Source of the DNA: Candidatus Woesearchaeota archaeon CG10_big_fil_rev_8_21_14_0_10_45_16
GTDB lineage: Archaea; Nanobdellota; Nanobdellia; Woesearchaeales; GW2011-AR9
Direction of reading: 5' to 3'
Assembly: GCA_002762785.1 (NCBI GenBank)
Contig: PCXY01000004.1
Coordinates: forward strand, 124,001-188,000
Length of the DNA: 64,000 nt
Below are positions 22,612 through 45,133 of this stretch, one piece after another. The position numbers and the translations under genes were made by a program. The first letter of the stretch is position 1. Every line of letters starts with the position of its first letter. Below the pieces are notes generated by a model. It ran no database searches and was not told the DNA's origin. It saw nothing but the letters and a program-made list of their open reading frames with translations.

Positions 22612-23247
22612 CTACCTTTGCGTTTTAGCCGTTCCAACAGCCTTCCTTAACTCTTTCATCGCTTTCTTGGGATCGTCAGATCTAGAGACAAAACTGCCGG
22701 AAACGATATCATCAGCGCCAGCTTTGACGGCATCTTTCACAGTTTCTGGATTCATGTGCCCGTCAACAATAACCTTCACTTTAGGATTGATCTTCTTGAT
22801 CTGTCTGATCTTCCGCAGCGGTGCTTTAAGATATTTTGCTCCATAGAAGCCGGGATGTACGGTCAAGACCAAAACGTAATCCACCAAGGTGAGATATTTT
22901 TTTACAGATACTACACTTGTTTCCGGTTTTAAAGCAATTCCTACTCTTTTTTTTTCTTTCCTCAACAAAGAAATCACTTTACTGATATCGCCAACCTCAG
23001 GATGGATGATAACCAGATCAACTTTCCTCCCCTGCTTCTCTACCCATTCCAACGGTTTCTCAACCATCAGGTGGGCGTTATACCTAAAAGAAGAAGATAA
23101 CTTGAAAGGAAACCATAAAGATTTATTTGGAACAAACCTGCCGTCAGCCACATCTAAGTGTAATACTTCAGCTGTGCCTTTTAACTTAGAGAACAATAGG
23201 TCTATCTCCTTCTGCGACTTGCCCATGACGGAAGGGTAGATGTTCAT
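22612..23247 (-). CDS. rpe: Ribulose-phosphate 3-epimerase
   Basis: 211 residues, TIM barrel. Family motifs are clear: LHLDVADGRFVPN, YNAHLMVEKP, VLTVHPGFYG and KVIVDGHMNPE, with the metal-binding His and Asp residues in place. It interconverts ribulose 5-phosphate and xylulose 5-phosphate. The ATG overlaps the rpiB stop (ATGA), so both pentose-phosphate isomerising enzymes are made together. It is the last gene of a four-gene operon starting at 24417. Confidence 0.93.
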   Translation of the reverse strand: MNIYPSVMGKSQKEIDLLFSKLKGTAEVLHLDVADGRFVPNKSLWFPFKLSSSFRYNAHLMVEKPLEWVEKQGRKVDLVIIHPEVGDISKVISLLRKEKKRVGIALKPETSVVSVKKYLTLVDYVLVLTVHPGFYGAKYLKAPLRKIRQIKKINPKVKVIVDGHMNPETVKDAVKAGADDIVSGSFVSRSDDPKKAMKELRKAVGTAKTQR

Positions 23248-39964: not shown

Positions 39965-40045
39965 GTTTTTATTATCTCTTTTCTTTGTTGTTATGTTTAT
40001 TTTCTTTATAGCAAACTTTAAATAAGGGGTCTTTTCTTTCTAATC

Positions 40046-40064
40046 CTAATGTCATGGTCGCATA
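40046..40064 (+). repeat. Partial copy of the 5' end of the tRNA-Ser gene
   Basis: CTAATGTCATGGTCGCATA matches 17 of 19 bases of 40103-40121, which spans five bases upstream and the first 14 bases of the tRNA. Both mismatches are transitions in the acceptor stem that still allow G-U pairing with the tRNA 3' strand. Confidence 0.6.
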
Positions 40065-40107
40065 CTCGACGAGATCGTTGTCCCGTCGGTCGCGCCTCGT
40101 GTCTAAT

Positions 40108-40229
40108 GCCACGGTCGCATAATCTGGTATTGCGCAGGATTGCTAGGGGCTGAATCTGTCCTTCAGATCTCCCGTAATACCAAACATCCTGTCCCTTTGG
40201 GATCGCCGGTTCAAATCCGGTCCGTGGCG
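40108..40229 (+). tRNA. tRNA-Ser(GCU) with an intron in the anticodon loop
   Basis: Acceptor stem GCCACGG (40108-40114) pairs fully with CCGTGGC (40222-40228); G73 at 40229 is the serine discriminator. D-loop has GG. The anticodon stem CAGGA (40135-40139) pairs with TCCTG (40187-40191) after removal of about 40 bases. Joining TTGCTA and A gives anticodon GCT. A long variable arm TCCC-TTT-GGGA (40192-40202) makes it type II, and the T arm GCCGG-TTCAAAT-CCGGT is intact. CCA is not encoded. The endA gene at 18271 would splice it. Confidence 0.88.
40146..40185 (+). other. tRNA-Ser intron
   Basis: Approximately 40 bases inserted after position 37. It contains a hairpin CTGAA...TTCAG with GGG/CCC flanks. 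The exact junctions are set by analogy with archaeal introns at 37/38; I could not fit a textbook bulge-helix-bulge, so a relaxed motif is likely. Confidence 0.65.
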
Positions 40230-40275
40230 TAGCTTAGCAAGCCCGGGCTGGTACAGAAATCTCTGATTTCTCGCA

Positions 40276-40287
40276 CCGGTCCGTGGC
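40276..40287 (+). repeat. Partial copy of the 3' end of the tRNA-Ser gene
   Basis: CCGGTCCGTGGC is identical to 40217-40228, the T-stem 3' strand plus acceptor 3' strand of the tRNA, displaced by 59 bases. A preceding hairpin AGAAATC-TCT-GATTTCT occupies 40255-40271. Confidence 0.6.
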
Positions 40288-40311
40288 ACTTTTCTTTTTT
40301 CTTCGAAGATA

Positions 40312-40349: not shown

Positions 40350-43259
40350 ATGGATAGACACAAGACTTGGCTGTTAGTGGGTATAGCTGTAGCCTTGCTT
40401 GGCATCGTTATCTTAGTCTTCTTTTCACAGGGAACAACATCTGGGCAGGCAGTATTGCAACCAGGGGAATTGGTCTCCTGTTCTTTTGAGGGGAATTCTC
40501 TTTGTGAAGGTGTGGTTCTAAGGGGTTATGGAGAAGTCCAGCCTGTCGTCGGTAAACAAGGAAGCGCTATCCATCTTTCAGACAGGGGTTATGCGACTGG
40601 TCCTTCCAGTATCTTCGGGACCGATCCAGGGAAACCAGATCATTATGAATTTCCTGATCAGGGGGCTGTCGAGTTTTGGTACAAACCAGATCCTGGCGCT
40701 GTCGGCGACCTATTTACTACTCAGCCGGTCTCAAATATCGATACTTTGAGGATCCGTTATGTGCACGATCGTCTGGTGGTCGCTCTTTACAGCGACACTG
40801 AACAGCCTTATCTGATGACTCAAGTATCGGAAGACATCATCTTTAAGCCTGGAAGATGGTATCATCTCGCTTTCAGTTGGAGAAGAAACGCGCCCGGTAT
40901 TCCTGACGAGCTGCATCTCTTTATCGACGGCAGGGAGGCTGTCCTGAAGACGGAGTTCGGAACGCGTGACGCTAAGCTTCTGAGTGATAATTCATTGGCT
41001 GCTACTATTGAACTGGGGCATATCGCCAAACTGCCTAAGCAGATGTACAAAACTTTTACCTTGGGACTTAGCGGCGGCGCAGCAGCAGCAGGAACGTACG
41101 ACGAACTGAAGATCCATGATCGTCTTATCACTTCGTTCTGTCCACTCTGTGGTAATTATCAAAGTCCAGTCATCTACCAGAAGCCGTTGTTCGGTGAAGA
41201 AGGAAAAAATAACCTGGTCTTTCCAACGTCAAAACCGATGACGGACGAGATCATCAACTCTGTAGAGATCAGCGCGGCTCCAGGGGAATTCGAGCCAGCT
41301 TCTTTTACAGTCTATTCACCGAGAGCTTTGTCTTCTGTCTCTGTTACAACGACACCCCTTGTTTCTGGTCAGAATTCCATCCCTTTAAGAAATATTGATG
41401 TACGGGTGGTGAAAGTCTGGAAACAGGCAGGTTATGATCTGGAGAGTTGGTCGGGACAAGCAGGGGGTGTTCCTTCACAGATTCCCTGGGATCAATTTGG
41501 CGTCTTTGACAAGTCTGGTGTTCTGGTGCCGGAGCTTCTAGTCTACAATGATCAAGAAACTTATAAAGATAATTATGACGCGCAAGGTCGTTATATCTCT
41601 CCGAGTATCTCGACTACTTTACAGACAGAAATTCCTGCCGGCACGTCTAAACAGTTCTGGATCACTGTGGAAATTCCTAATAGTACCCCCGCGGGAAATT
41701 ATCAGGGAACACTTAGTCTTACTTCTAGTGGTCAATCAATTAGACAGATTCCATTCACGGTAAGGGTTTTACCGTTTACTTTAGATGAACCTGAACAGAC
41801 AAGGGCGATTTTTTATCGTGCAATATTGTCCCCTGATTTTAGTCGTTTCCCACGTAGATCGGCAAATTATCTGGAAGTTCTGCCGGAACAACAGATGCGT
41901 CAGCAGATGCAGGATATTAAAGACCATGGTTTTAATGCTCTTACTTTGAATACTGGGGGTCAGCCTGAAGCAGAATTACAGAAGACCTTGCAGATGGCTA
42001 AAGAGATTGGTTTTGAGAAAGTTATCCAATCTTGTTACTACCTTGACGCGGATTCTTCTTCAAGTCGTTGTGGTGATTTAGAGATTCAGATTAAATTAAC
42101 TAGGCGGGCTGGCTTTGAACCAATTTTCTTGGGTCCTGACGAGGTAAACAATTTCCCTAATCCGGACAGTTTTAGGGTGGTTTTTGATTATTATCTTCCA
42201 AACATTAAGAGTCAGGGCGCTAAGAGTTTATTCACTTCAAATTATGCAGTGGCTAAATTTTATGGTGATTCTAATAGTGAGATGTATAATCAAGTTTATC
42301 AAGGACAAACAGATCCAATTCGAGTAACGAATCCTGAATTTACTGCCATGCATCCGGATATTGCTGCCATCGCTCTGCCGGTTAAATCAAGTCTTAACAG
42401 AGGTTTTGAGAGATATAATGCGATAATGCAAGGCGCTCCTCGTGATGGTTTTGCGGCTGAGGAATGGTATTACTGGCAGCTTGGTCGTCAATATCCTAAA
42501 CTGACACGTCATAATACTGGCCTGGTCTTATGGCTGACGCAGGCTAGAGGTTTCATACCTTATGTTTATCAACATCTGGCTTCTCCAGGTGTATATACTG
42601 GTCCGCCGTTCGAAGAGTTCAGTTCAACCTATGTTGCGGAAAAAGGCTACCTTCCGCCGCAGATGGCAACGTATCCATCGCAGCAAGGGCCGATACCCAC
42701 CTTAGAGTGGGAAGCCATGCGTGAAGGTATCGATGACTTGAAGTATCTAGTTACTTTGCAGAACCGTCTGGATTCGATCCGTCTAAGTGATTCTGCGTTG
42801 TATGGTCGTGTTACAGCTGAATTAAATCGACAATTAGACCCTTTCAGAAACCTTAATGCCTGGCAGGCTTTGTCAGATGCTGATTACAGGAACCTGCGGG
42901 AGTTTATCATCAGTAAGATCCTCGAGATAGACGCAGCTAATCCTAGAAAAGTAGTTCTTGAATGCAGTCCGTTGAATTTCAATTTCTGCCGGTCTCAGAA
43001 AGAATGTCTGCTTCTGGCTGGCGGCAAATGGGTGCCGGAGTTCGCGTCGTGTACGGCGCAATGTCCTCTTGGGTTTACAGAGACAGCTGGTGTTTGTGAA
43101 AGGCAGCTATTCTTTGGCGAGGAAGAAGGTTCACCACAAAATCTTTGCGTCGATACTTCTGTTCTTTTACAAAGTATCTCGCAGTGGCGGAACGGCCAAT
43201 TAGATACTGCCGATCTTCTCACTTCGATACAGAGGTGGCGCACCCAGGAAAACTGCTGA
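40350..43259 (+). CDS. Surface protein: LamG-like and GH123/DUF4091-like domains with C-terminal WRT module
   Basis: 969 residues. N-terminal membrane segment (TWLLVGIAVALLGIVILVFF) then SGQA (31-34). Residues about 40-260 are a LamG/concanavalin-like domain (FPDQGAVEFWYKPDPGA, GRWYHLAFSW, LHLFIDGREA). Residues about 290-860 resemble GH123-type hydrolases with a DUF4091 end (WEAMREGIDDLKYLVTLQNRL). A Cys-rich GGKWVP segment (about 880-920) follows, then the Cys-bracketed ISQWRN...IQRWRT module (933-969). It probably binds and trims glycans at the surface; catalytic residues were not assigned. Bases 41560-42450 are AT-richer than the flanks. Confidence 0.8.
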   Translation: MDRHKTWLLVGIAVALLGIVILVFFSQGTTSGQAVLQPGELVSCSFEGNSLCEGVVLRGYGEVQPVVGKQGSAIHLSDRGYATGPSSIFGTDPGKPDHYEFPDQGAVEFWYKPDPGAVGDLFTTQPVSNIDTLRIRYVHDRLVVALYSDTEQPYLMTQVSEDIIFKPGRWYHLAFSWRRNAPGIPDELHLFIDGREAVLKTEFGTRDAKLLSDNSLAATIELGHIAKLPKQMYKTFTLGLSGGAAAAGTYDELKIHDRLITSFCPLCGNYQSPVIYQKPLFGEEGKNNLVFPTSKPMTDEIINSVEISAAPGEFEPASFTVYSPRALSSVSVTTTPLVSGQNSIPLRNIDVRVVKVWKQAGYDLESWSGQAGGVPSQIPWDQFGVFDKSGVLVPELLVYNDQETYKDNYDAQGRYISPSISTTLQTEIPAGTSKQFWITVEIPNSTPAGNYQGTLSLTSSGQSIRQIPFTVRVLPFTLDEPEQTRAIFYRAILSPDFSRFPRRSANYLEVLPEQQMRQQMQDIKDHGFNALTLNTGGQPEAELQKTLQMAKEIGFEKVIQSCYYLDADSSSSRCGDLEIQIKLTRRAGFEPIFLGPDEVNNFPNPDSFRVVFDYYLPNIKSQGAKSLFTSNYAVAKFYGDSNSEMYNQVYQGQTDPIRVTNPEFTAMHPDIAAIALPVKSSLNRGFERYNAIMQGAPRDGFAAEEWYYWQLGRQYPKLTRHNTGLVLWLTQARGFIPYVYQHLASPGVYTGPPFEEFSSTYVAEKGYLPPQMATYPSQQGPIPTLEWEAMREGIDDLKYLVTLQNRLDSIRLSDSALYGRVTAELNRQLDPFRNLNAWQALSDADYRNLREFIISKILEIDAANPRKVVLECSPLNFNFCRSQKECLLLAGGKWVPEFASCTAQCPLGFTETAGVCERQLFFGEEEGSPQNLCVDTSVLLQSISQWRNGQLDTADLLTSIQRWRTQENC

Positions 43260-43300: not shown

Positions 43301-45133
43301 ATGGTCGATACGCATAAGGTGTGGTTGATTGTAGGGATAGTTGTCGCTGTTCTCGCAGTTCTATTGTTGGCATTAGCTCCTCGTCTTACTGGTCCGGTGG
43401 CTGGGCAGGCGATAGATTTGGGTGGAGAAAATCTGCACTTTCGACAGTTGCAGGCTTTAGGAGATCGAGCATCACAGATCCAATGTCCGCGTTATGGCTC
43501 TTCTGCATTGATGTTCCGAAGTCCACGTTACGATGTGGGTGGTATAGAGTTAACGTCGCTGGGTAATCTTGAGCAGGAACAGATCAGGGGCTCCGTCTGT
43601 TATGGTCGGTTGGCCGATGTTTATGATACTCCCGACCTGTTCCATAAGAATGCTGCTTACCAAAACGCAGAGTATTACTGTGACGGTATGTATAAAGGGA
43701 TACCTTTTATCAGGATCAATAGGCCAGACTCACCGTTCTTATATCAGTTGGTGTCTTATAACGGGAAGGGGGTAGAGAAAAATGGTGTCCAGCCTGATGT
43801 GGTGCGGTTTGGTCTTCCCGCGGAGGTTTGTCCCGCAACTTCTTCATCTCCTGCTTTCTATAAGACTAAAGAGATTACTGAACCAAATGGTGCTCGTAGG
43901 AGTGTGCCGGTACCGGCTGCTGAAGCTGGTTTCTTTACTCTTGTAGGTCTTGTTGATTGTATCGATGAGGGTGTTGCTTCCGGCTTGTTTGATCAAGGTT
44001 TCTATCCTGCAGATGCTAACTTGCAATGTGGTGTGGAAGCTATTGCTCTCCAGGACGAAGATGCTCTCGGAATTTCTACTTTCTGTCAGTTACGAAACGT
44101 AAGGACCAATATCCCTCCTGCGGATTCTTCTGACGTTGGTGTAGGTTATGCTCGGAAACATCTCCCTGCGGCTACATTTGTTGAAGCAAGAACTCTCTGC
44201 ACTGATGCGGTCTATGATTCTTTATTGGTAGAATATTGCGAGGCAAATCCAGATGATGAAGTTGTGATCTATTCTGAAGTTGTAGCCTATGGTGCAGATG
44301 GTCAGTCAAGCAACGGCGGTCCTCTCGGCGGCGTTAAGGAATATTTCTGTTCTGATTTAGTAGAGGCTTGTCCCGCTGGTGTCACTAACTATCTTATCGA
44401 CGGAATTTACAATGATTGCGTCAATGGTGAATGGAAAAGACGATACTTACAGTCTTGTGAAGAATCTTCACAGTGTTATCCTGGTGCAGTCTGTGATGGC
44501 GGTCAGTGTCGCAGTCCTGTCGGAGGGATGTGCGGATACAAAGGCCAATTATGTGTTACAGGATTGGTCTGCGATGATAAAGGACGCTGCGCAGTTGCTG
44601 AAGAGGCAGCTCCGGTAGATGAAGTTGCCCTCGTGAACCTGAACCTTTGTGGCAATGGGGCTATTGATGAAGGAGAAGCTTGCGACGATGGCAATAAAGT
44701 AGCCAGTGACCTATGTTCCAAAGAGTGCCAATTGACCTTCTGCGGTGACGGTATATTGCAATCGCCAAATGGCCGGGGCTTAGTTGAACAATGTGAAGGC
44801 GGTCTTCTCTGCAATGCGCAATGCAAAAAAGATAATGATCGCGATGGTATCGGTAATGATGAAGATAATTGTCCTGCGGCTAATCCGGATCAGGCAGATA
44901 GTGACGGTGACGGTGTCGGTGATGTCTGCGACAACTGTCCTGCTGTCTCTAACGCAGATCAGGCCGATGCGGATGAAGACGAGATTGGAGATGTCTGCGA
45001 AGCTGCTCCAGCCGGTCTCTGTGTTGATACGGAAACTCTTTTACAGCACATCTCTCAATGGAGAAATAGTGCACTAGATACTGCTGGTCTTCTCACGTCG
45101 ATACAAAAATGGCGTACACAAGAAGGTTGTTGA
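43301..45133 (+). CDS. Cys-rich surface protein with DUF4215-like and thrombospondin-3 repeats and C-terminal WRT module
   Basis: 610 residues. N-terminal membrane segment ([20 protein letters not shown]) then [13 protein letters not shown] long Cys-containing middle part of unknown fold follows. From about 445: a DUF4215-like repeat ([17 protein letters not shown]...), then two Ca-binding thrombospondin type 3 repeats ([41 protein letters not shown]). Residues 574-610 are the ISQWRN...IQKWRT module between two cysteines. It is likely an extracellular, disulfide- and calcium-stabilised surface protein. Confidence 0.78.

Follow-up and report, generated by a model that had tools for sequence, protein, structure and literature searches.

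Archaeal tRNA genes are broken by introns, splits and integrations, and how insertions into them are tolerated and how they spread is an open question. A locus in the genome of a Woesearchaeota archaeon raises this question in compact form. There, within a stretch of 64,000 nt analysed as a whole (the window), a tRNA-Ser gene stands between partial copies of both its own ends. Where do such copies come from, and what might prevent a spare tRNA end from spoiling the tRNA beside it? The locus and its relatives point to a small recurrent module with an antisense strand of its own, and this antisense suggests how the spare end may be stopped from doing harm.

The tRNA-Ser(GCT) locus and its end copies

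The initial annotation recognized an intron-bearing tRNA-Ser, and gene prediction bears this out: ARAGORN with introns calls tRNA-Ser(gct) with a 40-nt intron, and the Rfam tRNA model scores the gene at 42.3 bits (C4:164108-164229 of the source genome), although neither ARAGORN in its default mode nor an Rfam scan of the window at gathering thresholds detects it. The gene has the cloverleaf, the serine anticodon and the intron at position 37/38 that typify an intron-containing archaeal tRNA-Ser. A split tRNA, with halves encoded apart and joined in trans, is ruled out, as the gene is contiguous and complete. The parts of the locus, all on the forward strand, are as follows.

40017-40025 (+): TATA-like box, TTTAAATAA, 34 nt 5' of the outer 5' copy
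40051-40064 (+): outer copy of tRNA nt 1-14, GTCATGGTCGCATA, the predicted first transcribed bases judging by the position of the TATA-like box
40067-40088 (+): variable stem-loop of the 5' unit, attached via an internal loop AU / AC-GU / N / C
40092-40101 (+): antisense strand of the 5' unit, GCGCCTCGTG, which pairs with the outer 5' copy
40108-40229 (+): complete tRNA-Ser(GCT), exons 40108-40145 and 40186-40229 (ARAGORN with introns, Rfam tRNA model)
40146-40185 (+): its 40-nt intron, position 37/38 (ARAGORN with introns)
40241-40252 (+): antisense strand of the 3' unit, GCCCGGGCTGGT, which folds on the outer 3' copy
40254-40275 (+): stem-loop of the 3' unit
40276-40288 (+): outer copy of the tRNA 3' end, CCGGTCCGTGGC, plus an A in the discriminator place
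40290-40301 (+): T-rich, terminator-like tract 3' of the outer 3' copy; none lies directly behind the real tRNA

The upstream copy, as first reported, matches at 17 of 19 positions (40046-40064 against 40103-40121, spacing 57), extends to 19 of 22 (40046-40067 against 40103-40124) and includes five bases (CTAAT) that precede the tRNA. Downstream, the 12 bases CCGGTCCGTGGC occur exactly at 40217-40228 and again at 40276-40287, a spacing of 59. Neither match is attributable to composition: in 20,000 trials each, first-order shuffling of the 150-nt flanks never gave the 16 of 19 observed for the 5' copy in the register tested, or the exact 3' 12-mer. The copies are also present in relatives, so that absence from all relatives at chance level, which had been named as the finding that would speak against them, does not apply. 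A scan of the window for close direct repeats gave 15 pairs against 2-7 in 10 shuffles, six of the 15 lying around 8.0 kb; it includes the tRNA 3' pair, while the 5' pair falls under the threshold used. In none of these 15 pairs does an exact antisense run of at least 7 nt lie between the copies.

The minimum free energy fold of the whole predicted transcript contains both unit hairpins (z -4.64) and pairs D-arm bases of the tRNA with the intron. The 3' part of the intron (40173-40182) is complementary to the D-arm (40125-40134) at 9 of 10 positions; by eye, comparable complementarity is seen in relatives L022, L002 and L024, and involves different bases in L007, L014 and L019. Beyond the tRNA, the window holds two adjacent large ORFs (40350-43259 and 43301-45133) with similar hydrophobic starts, both of which end in a near-identical 37-residue motif, CVDT..LLQ.ISQWRN..LDTA.LLTSIQ.WRTQE.C.

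A recurrent unit with a covarying hairpin

What goes beyond the initial annotation is the internal organization of the flanks (the unit hairpins and antisense strands), the promoter-like site before the outer copy, and the recurrence of all this across the order. On the 5' side the parts run copy, variable stem-loop, imperfect antisense, spacer and real tRNA; on the 3' side the order is mirrored. We captured the 5' arrangement in a covariance model, R1, whose leader element comprises a copy of the gene's first 14 nt, the AU / AC-GU / N / C loop, a covarying stem and the antisense, followed by the spacer and the real gene. The window unit (40051-40106) scores 41.1 bits with R1, a match that holds by construction because this unit was in the seed alignment. 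Unit lengths range from 49 to 105 nt across 49 loci. In 15 aligned units AUAC-N and GGUY are almost invariant and flank the variable stem.

Covariation supports a conserved fold. On the 15-unit alignment, from which the scored structure was itself drawn, the score is 0.410 against 0.145 for shuffled and at most 0.126 for slid structures, with changes on both sides in 12 of 20 pairs. On 70 distinct rows fitted to R1 (alignment A2) it is 0.395 against 0.143 shuffled and at most 0.076 slid; the 15 pairs changed on both sides there are not unusual (13.1 expected, and attained by 45 of 500 shuffles). The upper helix is 97% paired in A2 and variable in sequence, and pair 14:60 is A-U in 60 rows, C-G in six and G-C in two. 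The acceptor part pairs poorly (at pairs 2 to 5 and 8, bases are unpaired in 23-37 of 66-69 rows), and covariation in the lower helix could partly reflect the origin of the unit, namely an antisense copied from the end. Template switching that yields a perfect inverted repeat is rejected as the sole cause, since the antisense has GGYC where an exact complement would differ.

The units differ from gene to gene in step with their hosts. The copy equals the following acceptor strand at all seven positions in 36 of 49 loci, compared with 4.4% against other loci and 0 of 2,000 permutations, a figure that leans to similarity because whichever stretch 40-125 nt downstream best matched the copy was counted as the real start, which in some tandem loci (e.g., L206) is the next unit. 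Twenty-four distinct acceptors are represented among the 49 loci. At nt 10-14 the copies mostly read GCATA, and the real tRNAs GCATA, GCACA or GCTTA. By anticodon, the hosts of 5' units at the loci read are mostly tRNA-Ser. An element confined to tRNA-Ser is nonetheless rejected by three hosts: L212 is tRNA-Thr(TGT) by ARAGORN, L229 resembles tRNA-Pro(TGG) by eye (ARAGORN calls Tyr(ata)), and L234 is the start of an ORF. In this last case a 57-nt duplication-insertion (source genome C5, about 22800-22858) that shares the hairpin motif and has a 17-nt direct repeat, AATGGCATACACAAAAA, lies immediately 5' of the ORF for Rrp41, an exosome gene whose ORF in the family starts with ATGGCATA or a variant. 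Among the 29 upstream-readable of 30 Rrp41 loci, only the source genome has the copy, GGTC hairpin and antisense, which favours insertion as their origin; a different copy-hairpin-antisense precedes Rrp41 in L265. By eye, a spacer type, TTCRYTNCRYTCRY, recurs before the tRNA in L064, L069, L071, L006 and others, and in L064 and L069 a stretch complementary to the spacer (e.g., GTAGCGAATGTAGTGAGTGAAGC) lies behind the tRNA and could form a long stem around it.

R1 matches occur in 62 of 352 genomes of the order, including 18 of 49 in the source family, and in 36 of 371 genomes of a phylum sample; all 36 belong to the same order, the share of the 371 outside it not being given. These counts are those of a scan that loses some units: by eye, units are present at L008, L033, L061 and L137, where R1 gave no match, and G022 and G046, the genomes of L008 and L033, count as matchless. 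Conversely, three of 77 R1 locus matches (the second matches in L214, L249 and L069) are not whole units, matches in G114 and G325 are partial, and matched genomes were read in context at the fetched loci only. A tRNA search in the 49 family genomes found extra 5' copies 55-92 nt upstream in several loci and none in others. A pattern scan of named genomes yielded 12 stretches (six Woesearchaeota, four labelled "archaeon," one Euryarchaeota archaeon SM23-78 and one Nanoarchaeia archaeon), all 12 of which have end copies. Tandem 5' units, two to four at a locus, are frequent; other loci have one or none, and 5' units only, 3' units only or both occur. In all 54 loci were counted; L070 and L205 read identically, and L205 was dropped from the tracking (n = 49), TATA (n = 46) and folding (n = 42) sets. 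Cut contigs, the ORF case and L002 were likewise dropped, as were loci with another unit on the upstream side (TATA set) or with no tRNA 3' end in reach (folding set).

A census of 150 tRNAs in 11 genomes, comprising all 16 tRNA matches of the source genome and 134 of 149 in the others (one tRNA being short of flank at each end), shows that most tRNAs lack any unit. A 5' copy (at most 3 mismatches of 16) occurs at five tRNAs against 0.29 expected, a count that underestimates leaders since the 15 omitted matches include the leader-bearing G002:C51 and G048:C24 and the nested G006:C50. A 3' copy (at most 2 mismatches of 14, within 140 nt) occurs at 10 against 0.23 expected from other tRNAs' ends. 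Among the 16 source-genome tRNAs, 3' copies are found at L048, L049 and the window locus; outside those 16, L233 has both 5' and 3' copies by eye.

The 3' units are less uniform than the 5' units. Folds covering no more than the last 70 nt pair 10 to 12 of the 14 copy bases in every one of the 10 units, and segment stability gives z between -2.1 and -5.2 in nine of 10, the exception being L125 (z 0.3). Equal numbers of paired copy bases are frequent after shuffling (2 to 65 of 200 segments), and the evidence therefore lies in the stability and not in the count. The initial annotation had suggested decayed tandem tRNAs. For the 5' copies this finds no support: the copy stops at nt 14 and is succeeded by a conserved, covarying hairpin and antisense, and the upstream copy has no remnant of a tRNA body past nt 14, where the 15-unit alignment has a conserved non-tRNA hairpin. 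Some 3' copies of relatives (L125, L139, L248 and L249) do retain a whole T-arm, so that older tRNA remnants occur there.

Rfam 15 gave no match in the window at gathering thresholds, and eight loci searched at E up to 0.1 gave five matches, all tRNA. The open-access literature (PubMed Central) returned no account of units of this type, nor of one tRNA lying within another. Judged on their sequences, the tRNA-flanking units seem to be a type of repeated RNA element that has not been described before.

Transcription, folding and origin of the units

Promoter-like and terminator-like signals lie mostly outside the copies. Among 46 leader loci, a TATA-like site lies 25-40 nt 5' of the outer copy in 36 and at that distance from the real tRNA in none; 89 of 144 census tRNAs that lack a 5' copy have such a site. 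At 3'-unit loci, TTTT occurs within 20 nt behind the outer copy in six of 10 cases and behind the real tRNA in three, compared with 92 of 138 tRNAs without units. The placement of these signals suggests that units are probably transcribed together with their tRNA.

Such a transcript would have competing ends. The initial annotation held that the upstream acceptor strand can still pair with the tRNA 3' strand; GTCATGG can indeed pair with CCGTGGC via two G-U pairs, but in the folded transcript this has a probability of 0.004, against 0.99 for the real acceptor (0.93 without the trailer). Across 42 loci, folded as unit plus tRNA, the outer copy pairs with the 3' strand at a mean of 0.53 and the real strand at 0.43, and the equilibrium fold favours the outer copy at 25 loci, the window not among them; sequestration in silico thus falls well short of complete. 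When the antisense is shuffled, mean correct acceptor pairing falls from 0.43 to 0.17 (Wilcoxon p 2e-5); counting changes greater than 0.05, real pairing drops at 26 loci and rises at four, and in the window it goes from 0.93 to 0.73. The antisense therefore helps correct pairing in these predictions. Folding during transcription should favour the local hairpin, which is transcribed in full ahead of the real strand.

The best explanation, to which we give about an even chance of being right, is that short insertions duplicated the tRNA ends, that the antisense hides the spare copy and that the units are trimmed off. On this account the window would encode a single transcript, a tRNA-Ser(GCT) bearing one 5' and one 3' unit. 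The 5' insertion would have duplicated tRNA nt 1-14, up to the D-loop, and the 3' insertion the 3' strands of the T-stem and acceptor, each also bringing a hairpin with an imperfect antisense of the duplicated end. Transcription would start at the outer 5' copy and stop past the outer 3' copy. The spare ends, folded onto their antisense, are proposed to compete less with the true acceptor strands, which may be why the antisense is kept. Cleavage by RNase P at the inner 5' end and by tRNase Z at the inner 3' end would then detach both units, which would be discarded. The source genome encodes an RNase P RNA (109.7 bits) and a p30-like protein match over the cut-off, which makes trimming at the inner 5' end possible; a lack of RNase P, which would have left splicing as the only reading, is rejected on the same grounds. 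Recombination between the direct repeats may multiply or remove units and keep copy and tRNA alike. The duplication trap proposed in the initial annotation is backed in part, in that the direct repeats do bear tandem arrays (two identical 66-nt units in L235) and the copies track the following gene.

Among other readings, the remains of integration at a tRNA end, raised initially for the 3' end, are an unlikely account: recombinase-integrated elements would have left the displaced tRNA end and later been lost, leaving no function. This has partial support: the copies resemble target-site duplications, the direct repeats of the tRNA ends that a scar should show are present, and archaeal recombinases use tRNA ends, including 5' ends (PMC8371274 and PMC3293823, in the passages on integration). 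At L152 and L139 the 3' copy takes in 14 nt of repeated flank as well, and a 17-nt direct repeat marks the Rrp41 insertion. Against this, the window has a copy at each end with only about 45 nt between repeats on either side, which leaves no room for an integrase gene, and no element or recombinase gene lies between them. More generally, units of 49-105 nt have a conserved, covarying internal loop, are commonly tandem, and sit between the TATA-like site and the tRNA in an interval too small for such a gene.

It is rather improbable that the units are exon-copying introns, the outer ends being the true exons and the interval with the inner end being removed by splicing at the D-loop (14/15) or T-loop. 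The TATA-like site and often a T-run do lie at the outer copies, the predicted preference of 25 of 42 loci for pairing with the outer copy is in line with this reading, and by eye these genomes have many intron-like T-loop insertions. The inner tRNA is complete, however, and RNase P RNA is present. In the window the outer ends pair with each other at a probability of 0.001 and the outer 5' with the inner 3' end at 0.004, and no bulge-helix-bulge (two 3-nt bulges round a 4-bp helix) recurs at the junctions of eight MFE folds inspected by eye. A single outer tRNA built from both outer ends is rejected for the window, where besides that pairing of 0.001 the forced fold costs 6.7 kcal/mol.

Least probable of these, in our estimate, is a regulatory leader whose competing pairings act as a switch setting tRNA-Ser supply, perhaps controlled by a ligand or protein via the AU / AC-GU / N / C loop. 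A conserved internal loop beneath a variable stem would suit such a role, as would two pairings balanced on average (0.53 and 0.43) and a position between TATA-like site and tRNA. The units are patchy even in the source family (18 of 49 genomes), however, and also stand before an ORF start, a Thr and a probable Pro tRNA; we know of no ligand or protein for them.

Returning to short insertions that duplicate tRNA ends, a bolder and doubtful extension is that the units are self-propagating tiny parasites of gene starts and tRNA ends. They would insert after GCATA-like sites and in T-loops, duplicating the displaced end and acquiring its antisense, and so be harmless at once; the same process might drive tRNA intron gain and the placing of whole tRNAs within older copies of themselves, as in L020 and L235.

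Comparison with known systems

The closest published case found is tRNA-Thr-F of Caldiarchaeum subterraneum, in which, as far as the account of this gene goes, a 5' fragment lies 1.8 kb upstream of the complete tRNA with a putative recombinase gene between (Sugahara 2012, PMC3293823). Both systems place a 5' tRNA fragment before a complete archaeal tRNA, which is read there as an insertion with tRNA-end duplication. The units here, in contrast to what is described for tRNA-Thr-F, span a few dozen nt, have a conserved hairpin plus a strand antisense to the copy, and are often tandem.

A displaced tRNA-end copy, 3' or (in the pTN3 type) 5', is likewise a product of SSV, pNOB8 and pTN3 integration, for which the part of PMC8371274 on att sites gives lengths usually of 40-50 bp, and much shorter for SNJ2. 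Compared with the SSV, pNOB8 and pTN3 types as outlined there, the copies here measure 12-22 nt, occur at both ends and enclose a structured interval without an element or integrase.

Archaeal bulge-helix-bulge introns, including those at noncanonical positions (PMC4090602, in its relevant portion), are also insertions in tRNA genes, and the window tRNA has an intron at 37/38. The units differ from them in carrying an exon copy, so that the tRNA can be restored without splicing. Intron-like insertions in the T-loop (59/60) were noted by eye in L003, L004, L005, L014, L019, L037, L038 and others, several ending in GAGAAAG or TGAAAG just before the T-stem 3' strand; ARAGORN with introns calls no gene in L003, L004, L005, L014 and L019.

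Two nested arrangements were also observed, in which a complete tRNA-Ser lies inside a V/T-junction insertion of another tRNA-Ser: L235 (reverse complement, about 662-1023) and L020 (1413-1698), from genomes of different families (G293 and G006). By eye, the partners share an anticodon (GGA in L235, TGA in L020), and inverted repeats of 15 and 13 nt flank the inner tRNA; the outer tRNA of L235 has a T-loop insertion in its T-arm and one acceptor mismatch. The complementary sequences on either side of a tRNA in L064, L020 and L235, seen by eye, recall split and permuted tRNAs as presented in the pertinent part of PMC3218864; unlike the genes treated there, the inner tRNA is here complete and contiguous.
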